From the NCBI GenBank assembly GCA_905221605.1, contig CAJNDS010002213.1, forward strand, positions 1,381,121-1,445,120: 64,000 nucleotides of DNA. The letters are read 5' to 3'. Shown one piece after another: positions 36,646 to 57,404 of this stretch; positions within the stretch are counted from its first letter, which is position 1, and each line of letters opens with the position of its first letter. The notes beneath the pieces are model-generated. The model was given only the letters and a program-made list of their open reading frames with translations. It was not told where the DNA came from and did not search any database. The DNA comes from Symbiodinium natans. Lineage: Eukaryota; Sar; Dinophyceae; Suessiales; Symbiodiniaceae. The position numbers and the translations under genes were made by a program.

Positions 36646-37150
36646 TTGAATGTTTTCAAGAAGGCCTGTGGGGGGGGCCCACTTAAAGGGTACGCAATAG
36701 TTCCATGCAATTGTTTTGCAATTGTTTTTAAATAGTTTTTCAATACTTTCCACTACGCAATAGTTTCCGCAATAGTTTTAGCAATAGTTTGAAAAAACAC
36801 AACTATTGCACGCAATTGTTTTGCAATAGTTTCCAAAAAAGCAAACTCTTGCACGCAATTGTTTTGCAATAGTTTCAAAAAAGCAAACTATTGCATGCAA
36901 TTGTTTTGCAATACTTTTGAAAACACCAAACTATTGCAGACAATTGTTTTTGCAAAGTTTTTTAAGACGAAACTACTGCAAACAATTTTTGGAAAATTTG
37001 CACCTTAACCAAAAACTATGCACAACACGCGTTTGACTATGTGTTTTGGTTTTTCAACAAGTGCCACATGGTTGCTTACAAGGTCTTGAACGTCATGACT
37101 TTTGCAAACAAGTAGGTTGTAAAACTGCGTACAGTTGTTGGACACATGGT
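36646..37150 (+). repeat. Left terminal inverted repeat with subterminal motif array
   Basis: Inverted match to 56925-57404. The outer 18 bases are identical. The next section holds at least six CAATTGTTTTGCAATAGTTT-like units between about 36690 and 36960. The inner part (36985-37150) pairs with 56925-57095, for example ACTATGCACAACAC and GGTTGCTTACAA, with roughly one difference per 10 bases. The outermost TTGAA..TTCAA is itself a small palindrome. Confidence 0.9.
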
Positions 37151-37575
37151 TTGGAACTCCCAAAATCGTGAGAATCTTTCATTTCATAGTTGTGTTCATT
37201 TGTACAGGAAAATGTTCAATCGTTTCCATTGTCTTGGTTGGCAGGCTTTGCGACTTTGTCGTCCCCTCACGGTTCCAAACCCTAAACCCAAAACCCTAAA
37301 CCGAAACGCCTATTAGTCCCTATTAGCCATTAGCCACTAGGCCTAAACCGTACCCTTTAGCCTAAACCCTAACCGGCCCTTAACCTTAAACTTTAAACTT
37401 TAAACCACTTAAACCCTAAACCCTAAACTAATGTGTAATGACTGTAATGTCAACATGAGTAGCATGAGTCATCAGCAAGCACATGGTGCGATAGTGATTG
37501 ATAGTGAGCGTAGCAGCATAGTATGGCATTAGCTCGACTTGGCTCGAGACTGAGCTGCAGCTTCGTACAATATTG
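37151..37575 (+). other. Transposase 5' flank, with telomere-like units
   Basis: Non-coding, about 425 bp. CCCTAAA-type units (37280-37430) lie within it, so telomere-like sequence occurs inside the transposon as well as in the flanks. No promoter motif I would defend. Confidence 0.5.
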
Positions 37576-38893
37576 ATGGATCTTGAGGACTTAGCAGGCA
37601 TTATTCTGCAGCACGCAGGAGATGTTGCTGTGAACCCTGTTCCTGGGCATGCAAATTTGCAGCAGCCTGGCAGGGTCCGAAGGGGGGGCAGGGGCAGAGG
37701 CCGAGGCCACAGGCCCGGCAGAGGCCATGGGCCAGGTTTAGGCAGAGGCAGAGGCCATGGGCCAGGTCGGAGGCTTGGGCGGGGCGGTCGCATGAATTTC
37801 AGGCAGGCCAACACTTCCAGGGCAAGGACGAAAGCCGTAAACAAAAGGTATTTGAAGGCTAGGAGGACTCAAAGTCGTGTGCAGGCAACCAACGTCAATT
37901 CATCCGGGCGTTGCCGAACGGCCGACCATTTGCTCCCAATGAGTTCCGAAGAGAAAAGGTTAAAAGTTAGTGGGAAAGGTTCCTGGAAGGTCTGGACGCC
38001 TGAGGCGGTGTTGCGTGCAGCTTTTTCTCAGCCTTCGGCAGCACTGCGACAAGTCGCAGCAGAAATCGATGGCGCGAGTCCATCGCAAGTCCAGGCCTGT
38101 CGGCGCCTTGTGTCCCAAGTCATTTTGAAGGAACAGGACAAGGGTTTGGCGCAGCTGAAAGGTCAAGCTCGGGCCCTGGCAATAGAAGGAATCAAGCCTG
38201 CCTTCTGGATTCTGAACTTAATGTTTGATGAGACCGAACTTGAAGTTAACCTGGATAAGGAAGGGCCAGGGGCTTGGTCAATTTTGGCTTCCCATTCGCA
38301 GTTGACCGTTAGCTTTCCAGGTGAGCACCCTGAGGTTCGTGATTTCGATTTTATCCGCCTTCCACAAGCGCTGCCCCGCAAGACTGCCTCCTGCATGTGG
38401 TCAGCGTTGTCCCTAGAGACAGGTGGTCTTGGACCGGGTAATCTTTTCACGCAGGCAGAGTACCCTTGTGTGTTGGTCACATGTGATCAAGCAACAGCCA
38501 ACATAAAACTTCTAAAGAGCTTGCACGCCAGTCTGCCCAAGAATTGTTTCTTGTTGCCCATGCTGTGTGCCCAACACCGCAACGGCAATGTTGTGGAGCA
38601 AGTAACAAAGCTGTTGGGCATTTTGCCAGGTTCTTATTGCCTAGCAAAGACCACCAGCAAAGGCAAACTCTTCAGCGACCTGAAGAAAGCAGTGAAGCGT
38701 CAGCTGAGCCAAGACTTGCTTATCGAAAAGCAAACCCCCCAGGACTTGAACAAGAATGGGCTGAAGCTCGCAAACATGCAACAAAAACTTTGGAACTGTT
38801 GCTGGAAGGTTTGGCAGATGAGAATCCTGGCTTGCGTCCTGGGAGCTCAGCTCTCATCAAGAAGTTTGTGGAGTTCTTCAACGGCCCGTGGTC
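37576..38893 (+). CDS. hAT-like transposase, N-terminal exon (frameshifted)
   Basis: Starts at the ATG at 37576, because the codon before it is TTG. Order of parts: a Gly/Arg-rich tract (residues about 30-75), a helical DNA-binding-like stretch, then an RNase H-like core with an acidic FDET segment, CDQATANIK (compare the hAT second catalytic Asp region) and CAQHRNGNVV (compare the hAT C-x2-H motif). No BED zinc finger is seen. Near 38735-38741, in a C6 run, the sensible frame moves from frame 1 to frame 3. The frame-3 continuation is helix-rich and ends NGPWSG at the exon boundary; the frame-1 continuation is not protein-like. The frameshift is either decay or a homopolymer sequencing error. 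The exon joins 43562 across a 4668-bp intron. Confidence 0.72.
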
Positions 38894-39285
38894 AGGACCG
38901 ACTGCTGCATAGAAAGTTAAGCCGCCAGCCGCAAGCCTGTTAAGCTATAAGGCTATAAGCTGTTAGTTGTAAGCCTCAAGCCGACTGAAGCCCTTCTGCA
39001 ATGCGCAGCTGGTCACTTTCCTTCTTGTTGTATCACTTCAACCTGGGTCCTTAGGGCTTTGGGCTTTGGGCTTTGGGACCTTGGGCTTGGGCGGTTGGGG
39101 ATTTTTGACTTTTGCATTTTGGGACCAGCGTGTTGTTGCAGCTCGCTTTTGAAGCTTCTGACGTTGTCGCAGCTTGGGCTCGTGGAGAGTTTTGGCCAAG
39201 TTTTGGCCCTTGAAGCCCTAAAGCCTTAAAGCCGTAAAGACTTTGTGTGTCTTTGTGACTTTGTGTTGTCTTCATTTGTGGCAAC

Positions 39286-39590
39286 ATGGCAGCCAAGCGG
39301 CGTTCAGATGTGACTTGGCGGCACCCTTTGCTCGACTTGAATGACGAGGACACCTTTGCCTATGTGAAAAGGGAGGGCCTGTGGGCCATGTGGGATTCCT
39401 GCGATCAGCGAAGGCAGGCATCCTCAGGCCTTTGGCCGGGTCCACAGCAAACGCCAGCTGAAGTGAAGGCAGCCGTGAAGACCTTGGCCAGCAAGTTGGT
39501 CTCCGACCAGTATGGCGGCGTGGACACAGTGCTTCGCAAGGGACGCTTACAACTCAAGGCTCGCTCCTCAAAGTTTCAAAATCCCTACCT
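39286..39590 (+). CDS. Possible first exon of the intron-nested gene
   Basis: An ATG-started frame with balanced composition (about 100 codons before it runs into repeat-like sequence). Trp/Asp-rich start and a helical end (AAVKTLASKLVSD). I do not recognise a family. The exon end is not determined; the frame stays open to 39630 but the last codons look intronic. It is placed with the following exons because all share strand and composition and lie between the same AGGACCG repeats. Confidence 0.4.
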
Positions 39591-39811
39591 ACTCATAAGC
39601 CATAAGCCTTCAAACCTAGGCCAAACGTAGCACACTTAAAGTGTAGCAAGCCTAAGCCGAACGTAGCGCACTTAAAGACACTGAAAGACTTAAAGCGTAG
39701 TTTGAGCCATCATGAACAGTCATGAAGACTAAGAAGTAGGCCATAGATCTTAAAATCATCTTAGCAGATCCTCTAGACTATACGACTACACTGTACTACT
39801 ATTATTCACGA

Positions 39812-39975
39812 TTTAGGGTTTAGGGTTTAGGGTTTAGGCTTTAGGCTTTAGGCTAGGGTTTAGGGTTTAGGGTTCTGGGTTCTGGGTTTAGGGTTTAGGG
39901 TTTAGGGTTTAGGATTTAGGGTTTAGGGTTTAGGGTTTAGGCTTGAGGGTTTAGGGTTTAGGGTTTAGGGTTTGA
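39812..39975 (+). repeat. Telomere-like array inside the transposon
   Basis: Some 22 TTTAGGG, TTTAGGC and TCTGGG units fill what appears to be an intron just before the phosphatase-like exon. The array ends directly at the exon boundary (GAAGCAG/GCATCC), so telomere-like DNA serves as intron sequence here. Confidence 0.88.
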
Positions 39976-39978
39976 AGC

Positions 39979-40587
39979 AGGCATCCCATGCACGTCGTCC
40001 TGGACACGGGCAACGGCTCGAAGCTATGGTTGGGCGGCAGTGTCTCTGTCGACCCGCACCGGCTGGTGGAGAACGGCGTCACTGTGGTTTGGCCTGCGGC
40101 CTCGAACGTGCAGGTTCCAGACACAGTCTCAGTGAAGATCTTGAAGACGCTCGATGGGACTGGAGTTGTGAATGGAAGGCCGTCTTTTGAGCAGGTGTTG
40201 GGGCAAGTGGACGAGGTAGTCACCTTGCTTATGCAGGGCCACAGCGTCCTGATAGCCTGCCACAATGGAGCTCACAGGTCTGCGACCTTGTCAGCTCTGG
40301 TGTTGTTGAGGCTTACAGCCGCGTCCGCTCAGGAGGTTTCCGACTACCTCTCCTCGCTCCGCAACATAGTCGACCTCCAATCGCGTGCCCCCTCGAACCA
40401 CCATCGCAGGATGAACGTCAAGCCCATGGACTACCTCGAGTCGCACGTCGTGTCTCAGCTCGGCGACATGGTCGGGAAGGAACATGAGATCATTGTGGCG
40501 TCGCGCTGGGCCAACGCTGCTCTGTTTTTGCCCAGGATTGTTTTTCTGTCTAAGGTTTGTGACGATTTGTGCAATGTTGCTTACTGA
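39979..40587 (+). CDS. Cys-based phosphatase-like (DUSP/PTP-fold) exon
   Basis: The frame contains SVLIACHNGAHRSATLSAL, a match to the Cys-x5-Arg-Ser phosphate-binding loop of dual-specificity and tyrosine phosphatases: hydrophobic strand, Cys, five residues, Arg-Ser, helix. An Asp-containing segment upstream (LKTLDGTGVVNGRP) could supply the general acid, but I cannot be certain. The usual His before Cys is Ala here. Activity on phosphoprotein is inference. The stop at 40587 follows sequence that no longer looks coding, so the true exon probably ends earlier (near 40540) and splices on to 40.7 kb. Confidence 0.5.
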   Translation, partial: RHPMHVVLDTGNGSKLWLGGSVSVDPHRLVENGVTVVWPAASNVQVPDTVSVKILKTLDGTGVVNGRPSFEQVLGQVDEVVTLLMQGHSVLIACHNGAHRSATLSALVLLRLTAASAQEVSDYLSSLRNIVDLQSRAPSNHHRRMNVKPMDYLESHVVSQLGDMVGKEHEIIVASRWANAALFLPRIVFLSKVCDDLCNVAY

Positions 40588-40699
40588 GTCATTAGCCATT
40601 AGGAATGAGAAATCAAACATGAACCCTAAGAAATAAGTAACAAGTAGCAAGAGACTAACCGAAGCCTGCACAATGAACAACAGCTGACAGCAAGTACTT

Positions 40700-41398
40700 G
40701 TGAGTTTTCTGATATCACATCTTGTTGCCAAGGACATTGTCACTCCCCAGTCTTTCCGCCAGTTGGCTTTGCAGCTGGGTTTCGTCCCGGGCCAGAAGCC
40801 GTTCCAGCCTTTGTGCCCCCCGCCACTCCAGTCCGAGTCCCAGAAGCGCCCAGCTCGACCCGCTTTGCCTTCTGTACCTCGTGGTCTGGCGCGAGAGGTT
40901 GTGGACAGCTGGCCTGTGCCAAAGGCTCGGCATTCCAGCGACTCTGCCTCGGGGGCCTCAGGCCAGGTTGCGTCCTCGGCTGCTTCCGGCCAGGTCGACG
41001 TGGACTTGGAGAACATGCAGACCGACCATTCATTCAATGTGGTGTCAGATGTCGAGATTGTGGCGCCAGCAACAGACGCTGAACTGGAGGAGGCCCAGAC
41101 TGAGGAGCCTGAAGGCGCAGGCGAGACAACGGCAGCCGAGTTTGAGATGGTTGATCAGACTCCGTCGCAGTGGCCTCCTGAGTCTCCGCCGTTGACGCCA
41201 AGGGTCGAGTGGTCGCCTGAGGATTTCGAGCGCCTCAACACTGTGATTTCCGACCTCAGCGCCCTCAACCAGCAACTTCTGGTCTTCACTCCTGCAGACC
41301 CAGAGCAGGGAGAAGAAGGCGCGGCCGACGATGCGGCTGATTCCGCCTTGGGCGAGGTCGATGATGCCCAGATGGCGGCTGCCGCAAGCAGCTTGGAG
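40700..41398 (+). CDS. Acidic Pro/Ser-rich exon of the nested gene
   Basis: A long low-complexity frame with an ordered N-terminal helix (QSFRQLALQLGFVPGQKP), then an acidic region rich in E, D, P and S. The peptide ASGQV occurs twice here and again in the next exon, encoded each time by GCCTCNGGCCAGGT or TTCCGGCCAGGT. The start codon position is GTG, so this is an internal exon. Product unknown; probably a linker between the phosphatase-like and ankyrin parts. Confidence 0.45.
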
Positions 41399-41469
41399 AG
41401 TATGCATCATTGTTTTTATTGTTTTTGGCGGTTTTTGGCTTTTGGTTTCCTGGCGCAGTGTTTTTAACT

Positions 41470-41640
41470 ATATAAATACATTTATGAATGTATATTATAT
41501 TTATATACACATAATATATTATGTATATATGTATATTATATATGTATATATATTGATATATATATATATACATATAAATATATACATAAATACATATATA
41601 CATATATATATATAATTATATATTTCTGTGTAGAATATAG
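41470..41640. repeat. AT-rich microsatellite, intronic
   Basis: TATATA/TACATA runs over about 170 bp between two coding-like segments. Probably an intron. Confidence 0.85.
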
Positions 41641-41684
41641 TGTGTTCAAACTTAGAACTTCGAACTTATAGACCCAACTTGTCT

Positions 41685-42367
41685 TTAGCAAGCGGTCCGG
41701 ACAGTGACGCTAGCGAGCAGAAGGCCGAGCCTGGGGCTCATGATGACGACCTGAAGTCAGAAGTTGACTATGACCCAGACGAACCTGAGCAAGAGGTCAC
41801 TGAGGCGGCCTCTGGCCAGGTCAACGTCAATGACAGCAATGACAGCGAGAGGCAGAACCTTGAGAAAGCAGTGCAGGACCTCAGGAACCAGAACAACTCT
41901 GAGGCCAACGAGTCTTTGACAAGACTCTATGAGCTCCTGGAGAACCAGAGGCTTTCGCAGCAGGCACTGCTTTCCAAGCTGACCAGCCAGGCTGATGAGA
42001 AGGCCGCCAAGGACAACATTTGGGCAGCCATGCTGAGTCGTAACATTGAGACCCTGGGACCTCTTCTTGAGCAGACGTCAGCTAGCGCCCTAGTGTCAAT
42101 GAGAGACCAAGAGAACGGCTTCACTGTCCTGCATCACATCACCCGCTTGGGCCTTGGGCCAGCGTTGGAGTTCGTCCTGAACAAGGCGCCGGTCCTGGCA
42201 GATGCGGTCTCTGCGCCCATGGGGCGGGCTGGAAACTGGACAGCTTTGATGGTGTTGGTGGACACCCCATTTGGGTCCATTGGCGGTCCGGACTACGCGT
42301 ACAAGATGCTCACGCTCCTCTTGGCTTACATGAGCTCGACAGCCATCCAGTCACTTGGCGACCAGTT
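41685..42367 (+). CDS. Coiled-coil and ankyrin-like exon
   Basis: Begins after AAG near 41685. An acidic start is followed by a coiled-coil-like stretch (LEKAVQDLRNQNN to LTSQADEKAAKDN), then ankyrin-like helices: FTVLHHITRLGLGPALEFVL and WTALMVLVDTPFG. The ankyrin consensus is loose (TVLH in place of TPLH). It continues into the next exon, which has a better repeat. Product and partner unknown. Confidence 0.5.
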
Positions 42368-42539
42368 AAATTTGCAGATTTTTATTCCATGAATTTTATG
42401 AGTTTTTTTATGTGTTAAGGCCTGTAGTCTCCTTAAAACTTAAAGCCGAACCCTAAACAGTAAGCCGAAACCCTAAACCCTATAAACCCTAGGCCTTAAA
42501 CCCTAAACCCTGACCCTAAACCGCCTAAACGTTGCCAAC

Positions 42540-42859
42540 CCAGGACCAGGGCTATGAGCGGATCCACTGCGCTGCACATCGCTGCCAGTCGAGGCCAGCT
42601 CCGCTTTGTCAAGAAGATGTGCTGGTCCCTCTACCACAAGCTGGGCGGGTCGAGCACAGACCCACGTAGCCACCAAAGCGCTGTGGCTTTCCACATGGTT
42701 CGTGACCTCTTGAATTCGTCAGGTGGCAAGAGGGGCCAAGGAGTGGTGGACATGGCTTTGGGCGCCAATGTGGAGACCGCCATGTACCTCAAGAACCACT
42801 GGAACGCAGTGGAGCAGGTGCCGGCCCCAGCCAGGCGCCCAGGGCCTGGCTATTGGTGA
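42540..42859 (+). CDS. C-terminal ankyrin exon
   Basis: GSTALHIAASRGQLRFVKKM is a clear ankyrin motif (TALHIAA..G....V). A second weaker unit (KRGQGVVDMALGANVETAMYL) follows and the frame ends in TGA at 42859. The preceding intron holds CCCTAAA units (42460-42530). Ankyrin repeats bind proteins. The sequence following the stop is full of GGC-TTT-AGCC palindromes. Confidence 0.55.
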
Positions 42860-43561: not shown

Positions 43562-45746
43562 AGGACCGCCAATCCACATCTGCCCGGGCAGGCCATGCTG
43601 CACAGACCGAGAAGAGTCAGTGGAGAGGGGTTTCGAGCTCTTGGAGCAGGTCATGCTAAAGCCGATCTTGGTACCTGCCCTGAACAAATGGACAAAGGTT
43701 GCCCCATGCATGCGCCATGTGTCAGTGCTGCAGAACTTCTGCAGGCTTGTTCCCAGAGCCTTTGAGGCATGTTTCAAAACCTCTGCCCGAAACCCACGGG
43801 AAGATGATTCTGAAGATGAGGGAGCAGAGGTTGGGGCGCCAATCGATCAGGCTAGAGTGTGGCAGAGACTCGCCAGAAAGCGTCTTTCCAAAGCAGGTTT
43901 GTTTTTGCAGGATCAGGCATCCAGATGGAGAACTGCACTGTGGGTTGTGCTCACTTGCCCAGTCATGCGTATTCACTATAGTCTGTTCAAGCATGCAACT
44001 TGGTTGTCTGAGAGGGCTCAGCAAACAGAACCTGGAGGAGAGCAGTTGACAGTTGCAACTTTTTGCATGGCTGCAGAGAGTCCTGCCAAGAAGGCGCTGC
44101 AGGGCCTTGTAGCCTTGTTGCTCGATCAGAGCCAGGAGGATTGGGGCCCGGTCATTTTGGCCTTTGGCCCAGTTTCGTCATGGCAGCAGCCCCTGCTCCG
44201 AGTGACCAGACGGAGTTTGTGTGTTGTTATAGGGCAATTGTTCAGGAAATTGCTTTACCCTTGGACTCAGTATCCTTGGAGGTTGGCACAGTTGATTGAT
44301 CCTGCAGCAAGCCCTGAGGCCAAGAAAGAGTGCGCTAAAGAGTTGTTCGAGTGGCCTCGATGTTGCTTGGATGGGTTTGCTCAGAAACTCAGAGAAACCG
44401 CCAAAGAGCCCAAGGCCCTTGAGCAGGAACGCGTGCTGCGATTTTTGACAGCCGTGTTTGAACGGCTGGTTCCAACCTCCACTTGCATTGAGCGGCAATT
44501 TGCCAGGTTAAGCGAATGGAGCGGAGGGGGTGGATCCCAGCACAAAGGCCCCAAGGCAAAACTTTCCAGCATTGCCGCTAAGCACTGCAACCACACACTC
44601 GAACACGAGGTCAAGATCTGGCGGACGAACGTTTTGAAACAGAAGAAGAGACGGATCCATAATCAGAGGCCTAGCTGGGTTCGACCCGTGTCTGCAAGAC
44701 AAAATGGTTGGAATCTGTTCGAACAGGACCTGCTTGGAAGGCAACCAGCTTTGCGCCAGCTGAATCATGTGGACAGGGCAGAGGCCGCAAGGGAGGCATG
44801 GTCTGCCTGCAGCCAAGAAGAGAAAAACAGGTGGGCATCTCTTGCGAAAACGGCCAACAGCCAGGCGCGGGCTGAACAAGAGCAACAGGCAGAGGAGGAG
44901 CCTGAGATCGCTGGAGGTCCTTGGCAGCTTGGCTCTAGCACAGGGTGGCCTTTGGCCAGGCACTTGATTGCTCAGCGTTGCAACACAGCCATTTCTGAGA
45001 GCAACCGCTTCCGCCAGAAGCACAATGTCTTGCAGCCCGAGAACGCTGACAGTCTGGACAGTGTTCCGGCCGAGCCGTGGCCATTGTTTGCGCCCTGCCC
45101 TGTGGGCGCGTGCCAGCACTGCTTGCGTGCAAGGCGCCGGCCATGCATGGAGCGTCTGACAGAGCTGTTCTGGAAGGTTGTGCTGACAAAGGGGCCCAAC
45201 GCAGCTAGCTCTGACAAAGAGCCGCTCCTGCTGTCTTTTACTTCAGCATCCAGAGAGGAGGACGTATCCTTGGCAGTGGCGTTCCACACACGCCGCGCGC
45301 CTTTGCAAGCTGCAGTGTTTTTGCTGGGCAAGCTCTTGGAGCCAGCGGGCGAAGGCATTCAGGTTAGTTTCCACATTATTCCTCCAGGGGAGGATATTGA
45401 GATTCACACTGAGAGCTCTGTGATTGCCAACTTGGCAAACGATGCCGAAGACTGGAAGCTCGAGCTCTTGGAGCCTGGTCCTGTCACAGAGCTAAATCGT
45501 TTTGATATACGAGCACGACACGCAATAGCTGAGAGCGAGTACGGGATTGGCGTGCCTGAGCCTGAGCCCTCTGTCAGTCAGGATGTGCGAGATGCCTTGG
45601 CAGCTTTCGAAGCTGCCCATCCTGATCCGAAGGCCAAGATCCTGCAGAAAGCCCAGAAAGCCCGGCTTCGAAGGCAGGGAAAGGTCGCCACAAAAGCAGA
45701 GAAGGAAGCCCAGAAGATTGAACTGGAAAAAAAATGCAGGGCCTGA
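43562..45746 (+). CDS. hAT-like transposase, second exon with dimerisation-type motif and HMG-box-like domain
   Basis: Open from the acceptor (CCTGCAG/GA). It begins GPPIHICPGRPCC, continuing NGPWS from the first exon. Parts in order: a helical domain with ALNKWTKVAP; PTSTCIERQFARLS, which corresponds to the hAT C-terminal signature (P-x-S-x3-ER-x-FS); an HMG-box-like module (NGWNLFEQDLL, then EEKNRWASLAKTAN); a Cys cluster (CPVGACQHC); and a Lys-rich end. The stop at 45746 comes just after an A8 run (45727-45734), and a better continuation lies in frame 2 (next entry). Probable activity: cut-and-paste transposition of this element. Function is uncertain given two frameshifts. Confidence 0.7.
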
Positions 45747-46276
45747 TTCCTGAGTCGTCTGGCTCTGAGTCAGAGGCTGGTGAGCTGGAGGAGGTGCAGG
45801 CAGAGGCCGCAGAGGCAGCAGAGCCAGCAGGGGAAGGGTTTTTGCTTTCTGAAGCTGAATCGGAAACTGACACGTTGCTTCCGGGCCACAGTGAACGAGC
45901 TTCCAGCTCTCGTGATGTGGCCCCTGCAGCTCCAGCGCAGCGTTCAAGGAGGGCTTTTGCTTGGGGAGTTTTCCGTATATCGCCGCTCTTTTCGCAGGGC
46001 CACCAAATAGGCTGGGAGGCGTCGTGCAACATGCATCAGAACACAGGAGACTGCGTAGGAACGAGCTGCAAGAAGGCCATCAATCAAGGTGGTTTGTCAG
46101 AAGAGGACTGCATGCTGCGCTTGAAACGCTGGCTTGTAGCCGGGTTAGAGGATTCCTCTTGGGATGCCTCTAGAGCTCGTTCGCATCATGTGTCCCTGGG
46201 AGGCAGCAGGTTGCATCACTTTGCTCATGGCTTGGACTTGGCCTCACTGGATGCGAAAGCAGGGCACCAGCCTTAG
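45735..46276 (+). CDS. C-terminal extension of the transposase, displaced by an A8 frameshift
   Basis: Picks up in frame 2 directly after the A8 run, so the Lys-rich end of the previous exon would pass into an acidic linker and then a Cys/His module: GWEASCNMHQN, CVGTSCKKAIN, LKRWLVAG, ARSHHV. The spacing suggests a small zinc-binding fold. I do not recognise a named family. The frame reaches a stop at 46276, although its last 30 residues are not conserved-looking. Confidence 0.5.
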
Positions 46277-46360: not shown

Positions 46361-46438
46361 ATGACTATGACAATGGTGGCTGGAGCGTGTGCGTGTCGAA
46401 TCTCGACACGCACACGCTCGAGCCACCATCATAGTCAT
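46361..46438. repeat. 78-bp near-perfect palindrome, copy 1
   Basis: ATGACTATGA...GGTGGCTGGAGCGTGTGCGTGTCGA is followed directly by its complement, centred near 46400. It would extrude as a long hairpin with almost no loop. A relative lies 211 bp downstream. Confidence 0.9.
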
Positions 46439-46571
46439 TGGCTCCCTTGATGTTGCAGTCTTGTTCTGTGTTCATGGCTCCAGGGCTGTGCTGGGTTTGG
46501 CCTTTGGCCTGGTGAGGATGCAGCATTCATGGGCTGGAGCACTTGGGCCATGGGCCCGAGCACAGGAGCGA

Positions 46572-47262: not shown

Positions 47263-47350
47263 TAGTTGTTCATTTTTTGGCAATCTAGTTTTTTTGATTC
47301 CAGGTGTTGCCTGCAGCCTGGTTTTTGGCTTCCAGAGTCAGTGACTAGGC

Positions 47351-47650
47351 ATGGGCAGTTCAGACAGTGAGGAAAGGGAGAAGCCAGGCAAGCCCGAAAG
47401 CAGCGCAGGTTTTCGAGGCATCCTGCACCTGGCAATAAGCTTTGTGCATTCCAGACCGTGCCGGTGTTGCCTCTGTGGCCAGCAGTCCATAGATCCCACA
47501 CCTTTGCTGGGTGATTTGGATGAGGCGGCAACAGAGCAGGAGTCAGGCAAGCGGCCTTGGGCCAAGTACCGCAGAGTGGTGCTGCCAGGTGAGGATTCTG
47601 TCCGAGTGCCCGAAAGTCGATGCTGTTTGATCTGCTTCAACGTATTTCGA
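47351..47650 (+). CDS. First exon of a long multi-exon gene, zinc-ribbon-like
   Basis: ATG at 47351. Two Cys clusters, CRCCLCGQQS and SRCCLICFNVF, lie about 55 residues apart, with WAKYRRVVLPGEDSVRVPE between them. They could form one zinc-binding fold. The coding sense ends as the sequence enters a G-only tract near 47650, so the donor is within CGTATTTCGAGG. Later exons of the same gene are probably 49.44-53.89 kb. Family not named; I believe similar proteins occur in dinoflagellates, but that is memory and not a search. Confidence 0.55.
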
Positions 47651-48440
47651 GGGGGGGAGGGGGGGTGGGGTGGGGGGGGGAGGGGGGGTGGGGCGGGGAG
47701 GGGGGGAGGGCGGGGGGGGGGTGAGGGCGGGGGGGGGGGGGGGAGGGGGGGGGGGGGGGTGGGGGAGGGGATTTTGAGGGGGGGGGGCAGGGGACGGGGA
47801 GCGGTGGGGGGGGGGGAGGGGGGGGGGGGGGGGAGGGGGGGGGGGGGGAGGGGCGGGGGGGGACAGGTGTGCGCGGGGGGGGGGGCGGAGGGGTAGGGGG
47901 TGGTTTGGTTTAGGCTGTAAGGTTGGGAGGTGGAGGCGGGGGGGGGGGGGGGCGACGGCGACGGCGACGGCGGCGGCCGGCGGCGGGCACGGCGACGGCG
48001 ACGGCGACGGCGACCGCGACGGCGCCAGCGCCTGCGGCAGCGGCGACGGCGGCGGCGCGGCAACAGCTTTGTCGCCTCTTGGGCGGTGGCGATAGCAACT
48101 ACGACAGCAACACGAGGGCAACAGTGTTATTGTTGGCGATTGGGGTGGAGAAACGGCGACGGCGAATGGCGACGGCGACGGCGACAGCGACGACCACAAC
48201 GACGACGACCACGACAGCGGCAGCGGCGGCAGCGACGGCGACTTGCCGGCGCTGAGGGGGCAAAGGGGGCGGCGGGGGCTGGGGCGCGCAGGGGTGCGGG
48301 GGCGCCGGGGCGCAAGGGCGCTGGGGCGCAGAGGCGCTGGCCGCTGGGGCGCAGAGGCGCTGGGGCGCAGAGGGCGCGGCGGCGGGGCACTGGGGTGCGG
48401 GGGCGCGGGCGCGCGGACGTGCGGGCGCCTCCCCTGCCTT
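47650..48440 (+). repeat. GC-extreme low-complexity block (G-only tract, then GAC/GGC repeats)
   Basis: Positions 47650-47895 are nearly all G with scattered A, T and C; 47940-48240 are GACGGC and related trinucleotide repeats; 48255-48440 are GGGGCGC-rich. Long frames on either strand (poly-Pro/Arg/Gly) are composition artefacts. It lies in a presumed intron. Extreme G-quadruplex potential; sequencing quality here should be doubted. Confidence 0.85.
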
Positions 48441-48632
48441 AACCCGGACTTCCCCCCACACATCTTTTTTTCCCGTCTCCATCTGCGTCAGCCCCCACCC
48501 CCACCCAACCCCTCTGCCCGGACTCTCTTCCCAAACCTCTGCTCAGCGGCTTTGCGGCCAAGTGAGAGACGCGCAGCTTTGATGGGCTCAAAAGCTTAAT
48601 TCTTTTGCCGCTTGCCCTTTTGGCCTGTGGCC

Positions 48633-49022
48633 ATGTCTGCCATGGAAGCTGGCTTGATTGGGCTTCTGGCCATGTCGCCTGATCAGAAGGGCAGGCCAAC
48701 ATCAAGTGAGGATCCTCCTGCAAAGAAGCGTCGCGCCTTTGCCACACGCATTCCTGCGCGTATCAAGATGTTTATGATGTTGCTGAGCATGCCCACATTG
48801 GATGGCGACGAGCCCAGCATTCTCAAGTTCAGTCAGACTTGCCGAACTGCGCATGTGGAGTTGAAGCAGACTTTGTGCGTTGAGCGTGTTCCGGCTCAGG
48901 CGCCAAGGACTTCTCAAGTTGGCAATCGCTGCAATCGTCTCCAGGCAATCCCAGAGGAGGCAAAGAGCGAAGGTTCAGCAGAGTCAGCTGAGACTCTTGT
49001 TTTGGGCATGGACCTTAATTGA
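48633..49022 (+). CDS. Possible exon or short gene
   Basis: ATG at 48633 and TGA at 49022. The first 95 codons look coding: PPAKKRRAFATRIPARIKM resembles a nuclear localisation stretch, followed by helical sequence. The last 30 codons are low-complexity. It could be an exon of the 47.35-53.89 kb gene, but I cannot place the splice sites. Confidence 0.35.
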   Translation: MSAMEAGLIGLLAMSPDQKGRPTSSEDPPAKKRRAFATRIPARIKMFMMLLSMPTLDGDEPSILKFSQTCRTAHVELKQTLCVERVPAQAPRTSQVGNRCNRLQAIPEEAKSEGSAESAETLVLGMDLN

Positions 49023-49439
49023 TGAAATCAATCGGTCCTTGGCCTTGGGCCCAGTTTGCCGGCAGGAATGATGGCCGGGCTTGCAAGACTGACGCCAGCG
49101 CAAGACTTGGCCCAAGGCCACTGGCCAAGTGTTATTGTTCTATTGTTAGCGTTTGTTTGTTTAGCAGCTGGCAAGTCACGTAAAGACTTAAGGCTGGAGG
49201 GGGAATCTTTCTTTGTTAGGGGGGGAGGGATGGGGCCTCCGGCGTGGTTGTCTGGACCTTGCGAGGTCTTAGTGTCTTACAGCGTCCCCGGCATGCCAGA
49301 GGCAAGCTCTTCTTACCAGCTAGAGCCTTTAGCCTTTTGCCTTTAGCCTTTAGACGCTTATGGACGTCGAAAAAGTGAGCATGCTGTGATGCCTGTGGTG
49401 CAGGCTTTGAAGAGCGCATGTCGAGGTGAGAGTAGCGGT

Positions 49440-49575
49440 GCAGATGACTGTTGATGAGTCTCGTGCAGGCCTTCATGCGAGATTCAAGAGCTACTCGAAG
49501 TACTATGACTTCATCCAGGAGAAGCAGAACCAGCACGAGCACAAGAAATTTCTTTCAGCTCTCAAGGACCACTCA
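49440..49575 (+). CDS. Exon of the long gene
   Basis: A short frame, ARFKSYSKYYDFIQEKQ and then KKFLSALKDHS, which flows into DCEDWIRQHN of the next exon. The acceptor of the next exon (TTGCAG/T, exon from 49637) is clear; the donor after GACCACTCA is not a GT. Both ends of this entry are approximate. Confidence 0.45.
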
Positions 49576-49636
49576 CCAATCTGAGATTTGTTGCCTTGTG
49601 TAATATGTTTCTGGTTGCCTGGCTGACACATTGCAG

Positions 49637-50364
49637 TGACTGTGAGGACTGGATCAGACAACACAATGAAGATCCTGGTCGAACCCGGCTGAAATCTAAG
49701 GAGGACGTTCTTGCTTGCCACAAAGAGCTTGCAGTAGAGAAGAAGACCGGAGGCAAGCTGACAGCGCCTAAGAAGCAGTTCATCCTCAGCACCCATTGGA
49801 ACGAAAGCAAACATGGCAAATGGGATGCCTCGAAGGAAACTGAAATAGAGATCAGGGGCGTGAAACAAAAGGGATGTTGGCGAAGTGTGGGCGAAGAAGG
49901 AGTTTTCGATTTCGAGGAGTTTGAGCAGACCGATGTTTCAGAGCGAATCATAGAGCACGATGCGAACGATGTGGGGCCTTTGGCCGACGTAGCTTTCGCA
50001 CTAAAAAAAGAAGCCGTGCAGCAAGCCATGCAGTCCCAAAGCCAAGCAAGAGACAAAGTGGCCATCAAGGGCCCTGACATGAGTATGGAAAGCCTCATGG
50101 AAATTGTCAACCTTGGGATGTCAGCCTCGTCCTCCTCAAAGGACAGGCCTAAGGCCCGGTCTTGCGGCTCCAGCCAGAGTTCCGGAGACGGCGGCTCAGA
50201 CTCAGAAAGTCAGAGTGCTGCAGACGAACCAGAGGAAGGCATGGCTTCCATGGCTTTGCTGGGGTCTGCGACCAAGAAGTCAGGGCAAAGCAAGGCAACA
50301 GCAAAGCCAAAGGCGTCTGCGCACACAGGGTCCAACACCAAGATCAATCCGAAAGCGACGCTAG
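49637..50364 (+). CDS. Exon of the long gene
   Basis: Acceptor TTGCAG at 49636, donor CTAG/GTTGAA at 50364. The 106-bp intron 50365-50470 joins CTA-G to TC-CAG in phase. Begins DCEDWIRQHNEDPGRTRL, then KQFILSTHWNE and a Trp/Glu-rich segment, then a Ser/Lys-rich disordered tail. No enzyme motif seen. Confidence 0.6.
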
Positions 50365-50470
50365 GTTGAACTGAAGCCAACTTAAGCTCATCGCGCAGTC
50401 GTTCTTAGTCTGAGTTTTTTTTGTTTTATGCTGGCCAAAGTATGCAACTCTTGTTCATTGTCAATTTCAG

Positions 50471-51883
50471 TCCAGCCGAGGCAACCTACCAAGAAAAGAA
50501 AAGCAGCCCCAGCTCCAGCAAGCGAGAGCCTCAAGGTGAAGGCTGAAGCGGCTGAAGGCTTGAAGCTGGATCCGAGGTTGAACTTGGACGTCTTGGACCT
50601 TGGAGGCGGTTCGGACGGTTTAGGGACATTGCAGCTGGATGGCAGGGCCAGTCGGACATTGACTCGCTTGCAGACAGCCATCTCCACTTTCGAAGTCAAC
50701 ATGAAAGCGCTTGATCTTCAGGATCAGCCGGTGTCTGCACAATTGTCGCTCAAAGACTACAAGGCCATGTGCCAGAAGCGCGTCAGCTCGCTGACTGGGT
50801 GGATGAAGCCGGCTAAGGATGATATCAAAAAAGTAGAGAGAAGCACGAACAAAAACTGTTTTGCCGACCAGCTTCGCTCTCTTGAGGAGCTTGTCGGCAT
50901 TGCCGGTGTTCTTGTCAAGTTGTTGACTTTGATGCCTGCGCAAAAGCCTGACCCTGAAGAGTTCCTGCGGTTGCTTGAAGAGTTCGATAAATTGAACGAA
51001 AGCAGCGGCTTGAAGTTGGGCCTAGGGCCAGGTTTTGTCTTGAAGAGCCTCATGGCTCGCGCGAATGAGTCGTGCTTACACAACGACTTCAGTCGTTTCA
51101 CAGGTTTCTTCAAAACAAGTTCAGCAGACGTCGTCGCTCTCAATAAGCTCATGAAAGCAGAGGATGTGCAAGCCCATGTGGTGGTTGAGATAGAGAACCG
51201 ATTGCTTTCAGCAATGCGCGCAATCACGCCAGCAGAGCTGGAGCTCAAGTCTTCAGGCAAGGCTACCCCAGAGGATGCGCCCAACATGCATGAGGCTTGC
51301 AGCCTGGCTTCAGCCCTTGTTGAATCAGCCCAGGGGCCGGACTTTCTGGCTAAAGATGTTGCTGCAAGCGCCAGGGTTGTTTATGCCATGCTGGACCAGC
51401 AGGACATCGCAAGCTTGAGAGAGAGCGTGCAAAACATCCAAAGCTACTCTGGGAAGAAGCCCCAAGAAGGTCAAGAACGTGCTGAGGAACTGAACGCAGT
51501 CGTCCGTTTTTTCTTGCAGCACGACGTTGGCAAATCAGTTATGGGCATGGCTGTGCAGCGGCTAGAGCATGGAGAGGCAGAGGCAGAGTTCCAAGAGATT
51601 TGCGCTCATTTGGAAAACCTGATTGGTTGTGCTGAAGTCCAAGCAAAGGAGTTTGCAGAGCAGAACAGCAGTAAGGGCATTGCAGAGGTCAAGCAGTTGG
51701 TGGGCCCGGCTTTAAGCAAGCTGGACGAGTTGAAAGCTTGTCGTTTCGGGAAATCCAAAGCTGCAAAGAAGGAGGGCGGTGCTGCTGGCACAATTGCTGA
51801 GTTGCAGAAGAGATTGAGCGAGGCAGCCAGCCAGCTAGTCACTGTCGAGTTGACCTTCACCCTGCTCGAGCATTTGCGTCTTG
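50471..51883 (+). CDS. Largest exon of the long gene, helical repeats
   Basis: Acceptor TTTCAG at 50470; donor CTTG/GTTGCA at 51883 (intron 51884-52125). Begins with a Lys-rich stretch (RQPTKKRKAAP), then about 440 residues of amphipathic helices with Leu-rich heptads (RSLEELVGIAGVLVKLLTL, LLEEFDKLNESSG, ALSKLDELKA). It reads as an extended helical or coiled-coil scaffold. I do not recognise a family and see no catalytic residues. Confidence 0.65.
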
Positions 51884-52125
51884 GTTGCAAGTTGCAAGAA
51901 TAATAAGCTAGCTGCCCAATTCCAAAGTTGCGACTTCAGAGTTCTCGGTAGATTGACTACTTGCACTGTTTTAGTCAGTTTTTGTTCGAAGCCCCAATTG
52001 CTCGATTCTCAGAAGCCCTAGAGCCCGCCTAAAATACCAAGGTGAAGTGGGCCTAGAGTCCGACTAGCTGCTGATGTGTTAAAGAACATTAATCGTGAGC
52101 TAGTGGCTACTTCGTCTGAGGCAAG

Positions 52126-52703
52126 AGGGATTCAAGAGCCTGGGCAATAACTGCAAGGTCCAAGTCCCCGATGCTGAGAATGCAGACGACCAGGGCATCA
52201 TCAACTTGGACCAGTTCATTGCTGGTTTGTCTGCAGCATCATTTGTGGAGGACAAGCTGTGGGACTCCATGCCAAGCGTTCTGGCTTGTGTCCAAGAGTT
52301 CAAAGACCTCACTGACAAGCTTTGCAAGCTTGTGAGATGGGCTTTTCTGAAGCAGGAAGCTTTCAGGCAAATGCGTCAGGAGCAGACATCAACGTCAGCA
52401 GACGATCTTTGCAAGTGGGCAGATGCCCTTCGCGCGTCGCACTTGTTTGGGATGAAGGATCCGAAACTTGTCAGCGACATACAGAAATTGCTCTTAGAGC
52501 CAGTCGACGCAGAGCTTGCAAAGCTTCAGTCAGCAGGCTTGGACGCTGTTGCTCCAATTGCTGAGCAGTTTGCGCAAAACGCTTTAGGCAATGGGCTGTC
52601 CAAAGGCGTGTTTGAGGAGATGATGGTCAAGTTGCCACAGAAGCACCGGCTTCGCAGTCTGGTGCAGGCCTTTGGCCAGGCGCGAACCATCAAGGGCAGT
52701 AAG
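52126..52703 (+). CDS. Exon of the long gene
   Basis: The acceptor GCAAG at 52125 completes a split codon (G+AG) from the preceding exon, then GFKSLGNNCKVQV. Helical throughout (LDQFIAGLSAASF, LCKWADALRASH). The donor AAG/GTTATT at 52703 is a canonical GT, with the codon complete. Confidence 0.65.
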
Positions 52704-52875
52704 GTTATTGTTTAGCTCGGATCGCGCTTGACGCGCAGCCTTGCCTTGGCTTGATAGGAGCTGTTGGGATCATTATACACGAGTTATACTGTGATACAAG
52801 CAGTTTCCATGATTCATGATTGGGTTTGTGTTTTTGATTGTGTTTCCTCTTAAGCCATCCTGGTCCTGACTTGAG

Positions 52876-53886
52876 GTGGCAATGATCCCAGGCAGCACAA
52901 AGGAGAAGGAGGAGGTGACATCTCTGAGCAAAGCCATGTGCCAGCTCCATGTGGAGCTAAAAGCAGCCATGGAGAAGCCCGATTGGGAATCAGACCTTGC
53001 GCGTGCGCAGTTGAACACAGCAGCAATGCTGGAGCATTTACAAACAAAGGTGGACATGATGAGAAGGCGAATGGTCGCCACAGCCAGGAAGAGCAGCCTG
53101 GAAGCTTGGAAGCTGCATGAGGAATTACAAGTTCCTTTGCAGCAGCTTTCGACTCCAAAGCCCAAAGAAGAAGATGCGTACATGAAGGTGGTGGTGGGCC
53201 ACACGTTGAAACTTTCCAAGGACTCAACCCAGCTTGCCGACACGATCGACAGAGTGCAGTGCGTCAAGGAGAACCTAGACGTTCTCAGCAGCATCGTCTT
53301 CGACCCTGATTCGGTGAGTTCTGAGAAAGCTGTCATGAATTTCAAGGATGCAGGGGACACCTTGGAGAATTTTCTCCAGACATGCAATGAAACAGAAGCG
53401 GTGGCAAAGACGCACGTGTCTGTTTGCGCTGCTCTGGTTCTGCTTCGCAGCCAGAAACTTGGCTCTGAGACAAAGGAAGGCCAGGACATGGCGACCAAGC
53501 TTGCAGATGTGTGTGGTGCGCTTGGCAAGCACCTTGAACACTTGAAGTCTTACACGCCTTCACCTGCAGAGGCAAAGAAAGCGCAATTTTACCAAGTTCG
53601 GGTCTTTGGTGAAGTTGTGCATGCGGAAGCCAAGTCGTGGCTTGAGACTCAGGGGCATGCAGAAGACACGAAGAAACGCAAGCATGAAGAGCTTGCCGAT
53701 GAAGCAGGGGGCTCAAAGGCAGCAAGATCTTCAGGAAAGCAGCAGAAAGGTGATGCCTCGAGCAAAAGCACAAGCAAGGCAGGCAAGGACAAGGATGACA
53801 AGAGTGAGAAGAAGCAAAAAGAGCAAAAGGAGAATGCCGGGAAGAAGAAGGAAAAGAGTCTGGCAAAGGCAAAGAACGCCAGGTAG
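52876..53886 (+). CDS. Last exon of the long gene, Lys-rich tail
   Basis: Acceptor TTGAG at 52875. The exon starts on a whole codon, matching the preceding donor phase. Helical for 260 residues, then a Lys/Ser/Glu-rich low-complexity tail ending LAKAKNAR and TAG at 53886. The tail would bind nucleic acid non-specifically or direct the protein to the nucleus; that is inference. The 3' flank carries GGC-TTT-CAGCC palindromes. Confidence 0.65.
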   Translation: MAMIPGSTKEKEEVTSLSKAMCQLHVELKAAMEKPDWESDLARAQLNTAAMLEHLQTKVDMMRRRMVATARKSSLEAWKLHEELQVPLQQLSTPKPKEEDAYMKVVVGHTLKLSKDSTQLADTIDRVQCVKENLDVLSSIVFDPDSVSSEKAVMNFKDAGDTLENFLQTCNETEAVAKTHVSVCAALVLLRSQKLGSETKEGQDMATKLADVCGALGKHLEHLKSYTPSPAEAKKAQFYQVRVFGEVVHAEAKSWLETQGHAEDTKKRKHEELADEAGGSKAARSSGKQQKGDASSKSTSKAGKDKDDKSEKKQKEQKENAGKKKEKSLAKAKNAR

Positions 53887-54544
53887 CTCGTTTCACTGGC
53901 TTTCAGCCATGTGTCAGGCGGCTTTTAGCCATGGTCCACTCAACACCGCCATTGCTCATGCTGGCCGCTGCCTTTAGGACTTAGACTTATATATAGTGCT
54001 GCATATCGTATAGAATAATATAAATATAGTATAGCATAGTATAGTATTAGAATTAGTATAGTATAGTCTATGTTTCTATGCTGTGTGCGCATGTTAGATT
54101 GAAACTTGAACAGGGCAGGCCTGCAGAGCAGACTTGGTAGCTTGATTATCTGTCTTCTCCAGTCGCAAAGTCAAAAAGGCAGACAACGCAGCCAGTCTTT
54201 TTGTTCTTATGGCTTCTGACTTTGGACTCGATGATCAGAAATCATGTAAGCGCCTAAAGCCCTAAAAGCGCTTAAAGCTTGACCCAAAGCCTAAAGCCTA
54301 AAGCCCTATCTGTGGCGCTGAAGCTTGGAGACCTGTGGCTGTAGCATGTGGCCATGTGACAACTGACAGAAGAGGGCTCAAGGGAAGACGCCATGCAACA
54401 TGCAACATTGATGTCGCTTTATGAAGTTGTGTGTGTGTGGGGGCCTCTGCCTTGCAACAACTCGTAACATGTTTTTGTTTAAGGGTTTAAGTTAAGGCTA
54501 AGGTGCAATGTGAACTTCACTGTCAGCCTAGATCTGACTGAGTC
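53887..54544 (+). other. Spacer before the methyltransferase gene
   Basis: Non-coding. TATAGTATAG repeats at 53985-54075, AAAGCC/TAAAGCC repeats at 54250-54310 and a GT run near 54428-54440. No defensible promoter element. Confidence 0.55.
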
Positions 54545-56491
54545 ATGGCAAATGCAAGCGCATCTAGTAGCCATGGCCATGGCCGCTGCTTGGAGAGGGC
54601 GCACTCCAATCCTGGAGAGCCTGAGTTGATGGTGCAGGCTTCAAGCCGGGTCTTGCAGGGAAGCAGCTTGCGCGAAGGGGATGCGCTGATGATATGCGCC
54701 AAGCAAAATTTATCTGGCTTTCAGTCACTCTACCCGCAAGACTGGGGGTCACCATCCATTGAGAACATGGCCAAGGCCACATTGTCTTGGGCTTCAGCTT
54801 GTTCAGGCAGTGAAGGTGCCTACTACGTAGCAGAAGCCATCAACAAGGCTTTTGATGATCTCTCGGTGCCACTGAGACTCAAGCACCGCTTTTCGTGTGA
54901 GATCAACAAAGATAAGCAACGATGGATCCATGCGGTGCTGGCCTCTGGCCCTGTCTTCTCAGCAGCAGAGCCAGAAGAGCCAGCAAAGCCCCCAAGTGGC
55001 CCAAGTGCAAGTCAATGTGACTATGGCCCTAACAAAGACAAAGACTCAGACTCAGACTCAGACAATGACCCCGAAGCAACTCGGAAGGCAGACTCAGATT
55101 CAGATTCGAACTCTGAGTCTTCAGAAGGGACTGTGCAGCACAGGTGCATCTTTCAGGATGTGCAAGATTTGGGCGCAGAGCATGCTCCTTGTGTTGTGCA
55201 CAACACCAAGTGCCAGGTTCCTGAAGTGGACATGTTTGTTTGTGGTGTGAGTTGCAAGGACATATCTAAGGCGAATCCAAACCGGGACCCATCCAAGATC
55301 GTGCTGTCTCAAAAGACATCCCCAGGGGGATCGGCCCAGACATGGTCCGGGTTTGATTCCTTTGTGTCCACAAAGCAGCCAGGCATAGTCATTTTTGAGA
55401 ATGTGGATGCGATAGAGGAGCCAGCAGGGCCTAAGGCCGAGTCCCCGTCCAACTTGGACTTTGTTCTCCAGCGCATGACTGCCCTGGGTTATGAATCCCA
55501 GACCATGATGACTGATGCGTTGCAGTTTGGTCTTCCTGCCAGGCGCCGTCGTGTCTACATATGTTTCATCCGCAAGGGATATTGCAAGTTTGCGTTTCAA
55601 AGGCGGCCTTTGACAGAAGTAGTCCCCATGTTCAGAAGCATGGTCTCATCCTGTGTGAGATCGCCGCCCTGTGCCTCTCATGTCCTCTTAGACTCACAAG
55701 ACGACGCTGTTGCAGCTGGTTTGCTGGAAGCGCAAGCCAAAAAGACCAAAGCTCTAGAGCGTGAGGAGGCTGCTAAGAAGGCTAAAGACAACCCGAAAGC
55801 CAAGGCCAAATCTAAGTCAGCGGCCAAATCTAAGTCAGCGTCCAAACCTACTGGCGAAGCTTGGGTCGAGCAGCACATTAAGTACAGCCAGAAGCTGAAC
55901 ATGCGTTGGGGGCAGCGTCCTGGCCGTGATTTGGAGACCAACGAGTGGTTCTTAACCTTGTCTGAACGTGAAAAGGATGTGCTTGTTTTGTCAAGGACAG
56001 AGGCGCCGCATGCGGCGTTCAGAAATCTCAGCCAATCAGTTGGCCGAGTGCATGGCAACAACTGGAATGCTGATAGAAGGCAGTATGAGGCTCCCACTAT
56101 GCTGCCCACTCAGCTGCTTTTTGTTGAAATCACAAAGCCAGCAAGGCTTCTCTTAGGTAGAGAGTCCCTGATGCTGTTGGGATTCCCAGTCCTCCGGTTC
56201 CTGAAAACCATGACAGAGGCCGGTTTCAATTCTGTTGACGACCCGTTGCCAGAGACGCAAAATCAAATGCCAGATGGACAGCCTGTCAAAAAAAGGAAGC
56301 GAAGGGTCACAGACCGGGTTTGGCTTTCCGAGGCACTTATGGCAGACCTTGCGGGAAACGCAATGGCCCTTCCAGTGCTCCTTGCTATCATTCAATCTGC
56401 CTTGTGTGCTCTTCCTATCCGTGGCCAGGCAAAGCCCATCTCTGACAAAGACGCAGAAGCCGCGTTGTCAGCCCTGGCCCTTGTGGTTTGA
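54545..56491 (+). CDS. C5-cytosine DNA methyltransferase (transposon cargo)
   Basis: An uninterrupted 648-codon frame from ATG to TGA. It would transfer a methyl group from S-adenosylmethionine to carbon 5 of cytosine. Motifs in order: I, SACSGSEGAYY (about 84-94); II, SCEINKDKQRW (117-127); IV, DMFVCGVSCKDIS (229-241) with the candidate catalytic Cys at 237; VI, FENVDAIEE (284-292); VIII, QFGLPARRRRVYI (327-339); a target-domain region with a Lys/Ala-rich insert (400-440); LLGRESLMLLGFP (536-548), matching the usual E-x-x-x-LQGFP segment; and X, AGNAMALPVLL (603-613). The usual Pro-Cys of motif IV is Ser-Cys. An Asp/Ser-rich insert (about 160-195) separates motifs II and III. No BAH, PWWP or chromodomain is seen. 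All key motifs present and no frameshift: probably functional, unlike the transposase. Confidence 0.85.
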   Translation: MANASASSSHGHGRCLERAHSNPGEPELMVQASSRVLQGSSLREGDALMICAKQNLSGFQSLYPQDWGSPSIENMAKATLSWASACSGSEGAYYVAEAINKAFDDLSVPLRLKHRFSCEINKDKQRWIHAVLASGPVFSAAEPEEPAKPPSGPSASQCDYGPNKDKDSDSDSDNDPEATRKADSDSDSNSESSEGTVQHRCIFQDVQDLGAEHAPCVVHNTKCQVPEVDMFVCGVSCKDISKANPNRDPSKIVLSQKTSPGGSAQTWSGFDSFVSTKQPGIVIFENVDAIEEPAGPKAESPSNLDFVLQRMTALGYESQTMMTDALQFGLPARRRRVYICFIRKGYCKFAFQRRPLTEVVPMFRSMVSSCVRSPPCASHVLLDSQDDAVAAGLLEAQAKKTKALEREEAAKKAKDNPKAKAKSKSAAKSKSASKPTGEAWVEQHIKYSQKLNMRWGQRPGRDLETNEWFLTLSEREKDVLVLSRTEAPHAAFRNLSQSVGRVHGNNWNADRRQYEAPTMLPTQLLFVEITKPARLLLGRESLMLLGFPVLRFLKTMTEAGFNSVDDPLPETQNQMPDGQPVKKRKRRVTDRVWLSEALMADLAGNAMALPVLLAIIQSALCALPIRGQAKPISDKDAEAALSALALVV

Positions 56492-56924
56492 GGTGAGCCT
56501 TCTCGATCGGGCTGGGGGCTTTCGTCCACTTTTGCAGGCAGCCGTGTCGCGCAGAGCTGCGCAAGGAGGAAAAAATAAACAGTGCGCAGCTGCAGTGTTT
56601 AGGGATTAGGGACGATGCTTTGCATTTGAAGCCAAGCTGAAGCTTTGTTGCCACTAGACTGTCCCCACATGTAGCCTAGGGCCTAGGGCCTAGTACCTGT
56701 TGGAGAGCAAGCCTTAGGGGATGGTGGGCTCTGTTTGGTTGACAAGGCTCAGGGTGGGAACACAGGAGGACAACGTGACAAGAAGGATGAATGTGTGAGA
56801 ATGAACAAATTCAAAGCAGTCAAAGCAGTCAAAGCATACCTTAAAGAAGTCTTGAACAATTAGCATTGCTAATTATTAGCAACCACAAGCGCAATGTCAA
56901 TGTTAATAGCTTCGGCTTCAATGA
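56492..56924 (+). other. Spacer between the methyltransferase and the right inverted repeat
   Basis: Non-coding, with short CCTAGGG repeats (56675-56692) and a tandem CAAAGCAGT near 56812-56835. No gene. Confidence 0.6.
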
Positions 56925-57404
56925 AGTGTCTGACAACTGTTTTTTGTACAGCTATGAAGTTTTACAACCTAGTTGTTTGCACTAGTCTTGACGTTCAAGA
57001 CCATTGTAAGCAACCATTTGGTACTCGTTGAAAAAACCCAAACGCATAGTCAAACAAGTGTTGTGCATAGTTTTTTAAGGTGCAATTTTTCCAAGAATTG
57101 TTTGCAATAGTTTTGGTGTTTAAAGAACTTTGCAAAAACAAATGTCTGCAATAGTTTGGGGTTTTCAAAAGTATTGCAAAACAATTGCATGCAATAGTTT
57201 GTCTTTTTGAAACTATTGCAAAACAATTGCGTGCAATAGTTGTGTTTTTTCAAACTATTGCAAAACAATTGCGTGCAATAGTTGTGTTTTTTGAAACTAT
57301 TGCAAAAACAATTGTGCGAACAATTGCGGGTGTTTTCCTCTCTCTAAACATTGGGGGGGTGTATAAAAACATGGTTTTGTATCAGGCTTCTTGAAAACAT
57401 TCAA
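56925..57404 (-). repeat. Right terminal inverted repeat with subterminal motif array
   Basis: Inverted relative to 36646-37150. The array of GCAATAGTTTG and AAAACAATTGC units runs from about 57100 to 57330, with at least five units. The outer 18 bases match the left end exactly. The section 57330-57380 differs from the left end, so the ends have diverged between the tip and the motif array. Confidence 0.9.

Follow-up and report, generated by a model that had tools for sequence, protein, structure and literature searches.

The 64,000-nucleotide stretch of the dinoflagellate Symbiodinium natans analysed here (the window; contig CAJNDS010002213.1, positions 1,381,121 to 1,445,120) contains a complete, giant transposon bounded by terminal inverted repeats (TIRs). 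The element occupies window positions 36646-57404, 20,759 bp (~20.8 kb), and carries on its forward strand a putative transposase gene (gene 1), a large gene with no assigned function (gene 2) and a cytosine methyltransferase gene (gene 3).

Borders and insertion site

The element ends in TTGAATGTTTTCAAGAAG on both sides, in inverted orientation (18 bp each; 36646-36663 on the forward and 57387-57404 on the reverse strand), and is flanked by exact copies of CTTTTGTT at 36638-36645 and 57405-57412. This target-site duplication (TSD) is exactly 8 bp long, with no 9-bp match. A preliminary description had reported a complete element of about 20.8 kb with identical 18-bp termini and a perfect 8-bp duplication, and in this it was correct. 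A scan of the window for pairs of inverted 12-mers that lie over 1 kb from each other and have the same 8-mer immediately outside recovered two pairs, namely the element ends and one pair within the repetitive arms; 20 order-1 Markov controls yielded 1 case in total.

Subterminal arrays, each with an inverted arm, lie inward of the termini: CAATWSTTT-type repeats in units of ~42 bp on the left (36706-37131, forward) and their counterpart on the right (56953-57328, reverse). They are composed of CAATTGTTT and CAATAGTTT words, left and right being mutually inverted, and all 37 occurrences of CAATWSTTT in the window fall within the element, with 0 in the remaining 43,241 bases. The inner arms (36756-37126 and 56958-57328) share 89% inverted similarity over 371 bp, while the intervals separating them from the 18-bp ends, ~90 bp on the left and ~60 bp on the right, align poorly. 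The arms are thus discontinuous with the termini, and the inverted ends of about 0.5 kb originally proposed resolve into an 18-bp TIR plus separate inverted arrays. A further inverted array of the CAATTGTTT motif is found internally at 46946-47290, between genes 1 and 2. The same intergenic region features strong hairpin-forming inverted repeats (46361-46666), as two units ~90% alike and 211 bp apart.

The flanks of the element are the two halves of one minus-strand open reading frame (ORF), which the element splits. Outside the element proper, the upstream half (57300-61097, reverse) contains Torus, CCCH and MLLE domains and the downstream half (32447-36655, reverse) contains CCCH zinc fingers. 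Joining the flanks with one copy of the TSD restores a continuous ORF in the frame of both halves, whereas joining them with two copies or none leaves the second half out of frame. An uninterrupted paralogue, in which the halves are joined, was located on contig C335 (~553.2-553.8 kb), with 515 of 595 aligned bases identical to a 600-nt query of joined flanks. This empty site is paralogous, not allelic.

Coding content

Gene 1 is presented here in two conserved parts and the segments between them. The N part (37522-38909, forward; an ORF at 37522-38943 plus a second frame to 38909) has 52 matching proteins. Both of its putative catalytic D residues (codons 38227-38229 and 38485-38487) are invariant in the 19 rows of an alignment (A1) of 18 of these proteins with the window sequence; a CxxH motif follows at 38566-38577, and the AF2 model of the N part has an RNase H-like strand order. 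The C part (43572-46276, forward; 23 matching proteins including the window's own) comprises a helical region, an HMG-box-like region and a conserved C-terminal domain. Its putative catalytic E (codon 44490-44492, forward), in the motif VPTSTxxERxFAR, is likewise invariant across 19 rows (A2; 18 of the 23 proteins plus the window sequence). The HMG-box-like region (~44673-44900) was recognised by a family profile against the PDB and by fold; the window's own C-part protein gave no Pfam match to the HMG box. With D, D and CxxH in one ORF and E in another, the enzyme resembles a diverged DDE transposase of the RNase H type.

Several segments lie between these parts, all on the forward strand. 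A second exon (39331-39600) is homologous to proteins P0034 and P0045, in which the N part is fused to the exon at 39.4 kb. Its acceptor probably falls just before 39428, and the P0045-like reading GPWSGLWPG is reproduced in the window by a GA-AG intron (from 38896, next exon 39428); GA splice donors occur in dinoflagellates. A dual-specificity phosphatase-like segment follows at 39976-40587, with the P-loop CHNGAHRS (Pfam DSPc, E 4.1e-6, under the curated cut-off). In P0069 and P0074 the N part runs on into a phosphatase-like domain, with CKNGAxRS in place of CHNGAHRS. Two ORFs within 40688-42392 (40688-41467 and 41634-42392) may be gene 1 exons; they are open frames on the same strand, with no homologue support. 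The same may apply to an ankyrin-repeat-like segment at 42500-42859 (Pfam Ank, E 0.001, under the curated cut-off), for which homologue support was also not found.

P0024, an annotated S. natans protein of this contig, matches two N-part pieces without mismatch. The frame of the N part changes near 38.73 kb (38690-38760), and the P0024 model omits this stretch, though homologues conserve it. One of the many telomere-like TTTAGGG/CCCTAAA arrays of the window, which otherwise populate positions 1-32000, lies inside the element at 39812-39973.

None of the proteins found joins the N part or phosphatase to the C part. P0076 unites the C part with gene 2, which may be a gene-model fusion, and in two other assemblies the two parts probably lie on one contig, as the pairs P0009/P0039 and P0010/P0038 each come from contigs of equal length. 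We lean towards gene 1 being a single spliced transposase. The preliminary description noted a methyltransferase, a phosphatase-like/ankyrin gene and a large scaffold gene; here we assign the phosphatase-like segment, and possibly the ankyrin-like one, to the putative transposase gene rather than to separate cargo.

Gene 2 (47351-53886, forward) is a large multi-exon gene with stretches at 47351-47668, 49471-50369 and 50386-51903 and further ORFs at 52104-52715 and 52870-53886. The first three stretches match residues 1074-1994 of P0076 (25-44% in pieces), downstream of the transposase and in the same order. No convincing Pfam domain was found in gene 2. Very G-rich and GC-rich minisatellites occur within it (47649-47900 and 47950-48420), where local GC content peaks at 60-65%. 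A sequence resembling P0076 residues 1090-1177, which include the CCLC motif of gene 2, was also observed on contig C57 (locus L057, 2044-2302, reverse), outside any recognised element.

Gene 3 (54542-56491, forward) consists of a single open frame that spans 649 codons from stop to stop. Its match to Pfam PF00145 (E 6.4e-14) exceeds the cut-off and thus identifies a C5 cytosine methyltransferase. The best match among solved structures is Dnmt5/Rad8 (7r76, E 1.2e-6), as opposed to HhaI (E 0.0045); the catalytic-motif residues are aligned with 7r76, in several weak pieces. We accordingly term the gene Dnmt5-like, a class designated by best solved match and not by tree.

Relatives in the genome

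The preliminary description proposed searching with the ends for further large copies and empty sites. Apart from the paralogous empty site, this recovered a 7.5-kb element and five copies of ~0.5 kb; no second copy with the complete gene set was found. The 7.5-kb element (C335:563607-571117, reverse) has ends TTGAATGTTTTTAAGAAGCTTC and TTGAATGTTCCCAAAAAGCTTC, nearly identical to the 18-bp TIR, and a direct repeat, TTTTCAAAG, of 9 matching bases. It contains the transposase C part, of which two pieces are 57% and 38% identical and the C-terminal pieces 60-62%, followed by part of gene 2 (the third stretch, 37-41%), with arrays at both ends and an internal cluster between the genes. Its transposase is broken into several short ORFs, and the N part, phosphatase, ankyrin segment, methyltransferase and gene 2 start were not found in it.

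The short copies have near-identical termini and CAATWSTTT arrays, and L033 is matched by the other four at 89-97% identity. Their TSDs are exact 8-bp repeats in L024, L037 and L040, a 9-bp match in L033 and imperfect in L030; that of L037 is little informative because this copy is inserted in a telomere-like repeat. At C1258:735863, a decayed homologue of the right end (74%) adjoins methyltransferase 3' sequence (84-90% in pieces). In the 39 kb fetched on its inward side no further part of an element was detected, and the gene 2 start was matched neither there nor on C335. A right-end-like sequence, TTGGATGTTTCCAAGAAGTTTGATAC, was also observed at C187:111860 (L053); in the 35 kb fetched there, neither a second end nor any coding match accompanied it. 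As far as these sequences indicate, the 20.8-kb element is the largest member seen of its Symbiodinium family.

The 18-bp terminus occurs with ≤2 mismatches at 116 places, relative to 32 for a backward control. Thirty of the 116 were fetched, and partner ends were sought within ~1.5 kb only. This excess cannot be read as a number of transposon ends, because at least 14 of the 30 examined places lie inside the host ORF family. The downstream half of the host ORF was present in 14 of the 30 loci (the window's own excluded), its longest pieces showing 75-87% amino acid identity, and members of the CCCH/Torus/MLLE family lie at C335:552079-557591, L020, L021, L044 and elsewhere. This multicopy ORF family is probably itself a mobile element.

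Interpretation and comparison with known systems

We consider it probable that the element is a DNA transposon of the cut-and-paste type, complete and larger than any other member seen of a Symbiodinium family, which we take to be an undescribed lineage of RNase H-type DDE transposons with 8-bp TSDs. Direct support comes from the borders, the TSD, the interruption of an ORF that was once continuous, relatives with like ends, a partly conserved gene order and conserved motifs. By analogy with established DDE transposition and from the anatomy of the element, gene 1 would most likely yield one spliced transposase, in which the D-D-CxxH half and the E half are parted by the phosphatase-like and ankyrin-like segments; the corresponding place in hAT and P transposases is taken by an insertion domain. 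This enzyme would dock on the CAATWSTTT arrays and bring the two ends together; cleavage would fall at the 18-bp termini, which would be joined to the target with an 8-bp stagger, and repair of this stagger would produce the TSD. The ~0.5-kb copies may use it in trans, and the element may be active at present. Gene 2, which travels with the transposase, is probably an accessory factor, and gene 3 probably methylates element DNA, such that the element may set its own methylation. We advance more tentatively the notion of a new dinoflagellate superfamily of giant TIR transposons, in which a phosphatase and ankyrin module inside a split catalytic domain couples transposition to signalling and Dnmt5-type CG methylation is applied by the element to its own DNA.

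That the element is instead a very diverged, enlarged member of a named superfamily, be it hAT, P or Kyakuja-Dileera-Zisupton (KDZ), is in our estimation unlikely. The preliminary description called it hAT-like, and hAT elements do produce 8-bp duplications, though they are normally a few kb long. With hAT elements such as Hermes and Ac it shares the 8-bp TSD, short TIRs with subterminal repeats and, putatively, an RNase H-like DDE core with CxxH, and its PTSTxxERxF sequence resembles the PxSxxxER-like C-terminal motif which bears the E of hAT; Hermes is also among the best fold matches. It differs in its HMG-box-like region, the phosphatase-like and ankyrin-like segments between the second D and E, its length and its extra genes. 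Pfam scans of the element ORFs and family rows returned no match to the hAT transposase or BED, although extreme divergence could produce such a result, and Hermes gave no profile match up to E 10. The hAT terminal consensus is YARNG, from which the termini of the element and its relatives, beginning TTGAA, TTAAA or TTGTA, depart. Likeness to Hermes at the level of fold does not demonstrate hAT membership.

Similar considerations apply to the other named superfamilies. The P element and THAP9 combine an 8-bp TSD and an RNase H core with a GTP-binding domain inserted between catalytic residues. The element has a different inserted domain, an HMG-box-like region where P has THAP, and no significant sequence match; the P-element-like family PF21787 matched weakly in 3 of 19 N-part rows (best E 0.034). 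An 8-bp TSD is also shown for Zisupton and the Dileera family (PMC12730594). The KDZ transposase family had no match in the Pfam scans, no direct profile comparison having been made. We thus describe the element as an apparent 8-bp-TSD DDE transposon, its membership in hAT, P or KDZ being undemonstrated, and probably of an undescribed lineage among such transposons.

It is improbable, if compatible with the lineage proposed here, that the element is a composite of neighbouring units, one with the transposase and one with gene 2 and the methyltransferase, which fused and now move together. The internal inverted array at 46946-47290 would then be a relic of former ends. However, in the C335 element a single TIR and TSD pair encloses an internal cluster along with genes in the same order, so that any fusion would be old, and the best terminus-like 18-mer at 45.5-48.5 kb has 5 mismatches, a score equalled or bettered at 16 places in the window.

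We give still less credence to an ordinary transposon having recently captured host genes as cargo, in the manner of the 14-kb fungal ToxhAT, which the available literature suggests as the closest counterpart among large hAT-like elements. Its size, the lack of any second copy found with all these genes, and the commonness of phosphatase, ankyrin and methyltransferase domains in cells accord with such capture. Against this, two other gene models fuse the phosphatase segment with the N part, the position of gene 2 is kept in P0076 and partly so in C335, and methyltransferase 3' sequence adjoins a second right end on C1258. The label of cargo originally applied was mostly wrong, since several parts recur in relatives; the methyltransferase and ankyrin segment alone are possible late captures. 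An assembly artefact or chance arrangement of repeats, to which the repetitive ends and the telomere-like and G-rich repeats inside the element might have lent themselves, is scarcely credible given the joint occurrence of an exact TIR, a TSD and a frame-keeping empty site, independent relatives with TSDs, and the PacBio long reads reported for the S. natans assembly (PMC8045281).

Polintons (Mavericks) are characterised by a 6-bp TSD, a retroviral-type integrase, a protein-primed polymerase and capsid genes. The element has an 8-bp TSD, and among the 17 of its ORFs scanned no such Pfam match occurred, nor one to the tyrosine recombinase captain of Starships (PMC12134995). The earlier comparison with Starships holds insofar as both are large and carry several genes, with a DDE-type enzyme, TIR and 8-bp TSD here instead. 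The accessible part of the genome paper describes S. natans as free-living and its DNA transposons as largely conserved and perhaps active, without describing individual families (PMC8045281); nor did the accessible part of a dinoflagellate genomics review describe any DNA transposon family. Among the literature matches listed, in which subscription journals are thinly covered, no description appeared of this family or of a DNA transposon with a phosphatase- and ankyrin-bearing transposase gene.

Most of the Symbiodinium genome is methylated at CG (PMC5890265). A complete giant element that carries its own methyltransferase alongside transposase-like genes, and of which short derivatives and an empty-site paralogue exist, offers a concrete system in which to ask whether mobile DNA shapes this methylation. 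Carriage of a methyltransferase by a DNA transposon is not in itself novel, because the same paper cites marine-virus DNA transposons encoding a DNMT; it also names Dnmt5 among exon-rich genes (De Mendoza et al. 2018). Mobile elements with DNA methyltransferases are likewise known from this genus, namely SymbioDIRS-Dnmt3 and SymbioLINE-Dnmt, which are retrotransposons with Dnmt3 or orphan-lineage enzymes (PMC5890265). Among cellular DNA transposons that carry a DNA-modification gene, the closest counterpart in the available literature is formed by the fungal KDZ elements with TET/JBP dioxygenases, whose enzymes act towards removing methylcytosine (PMC12730594) where gene 3 is a cytosine methyltransferase. 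A cellular TIR transposon that carries a Dnmt5-like gene is distinct both from the Dnmt3 and orphan-lineage retrotransposons and from the marine-virus elements.
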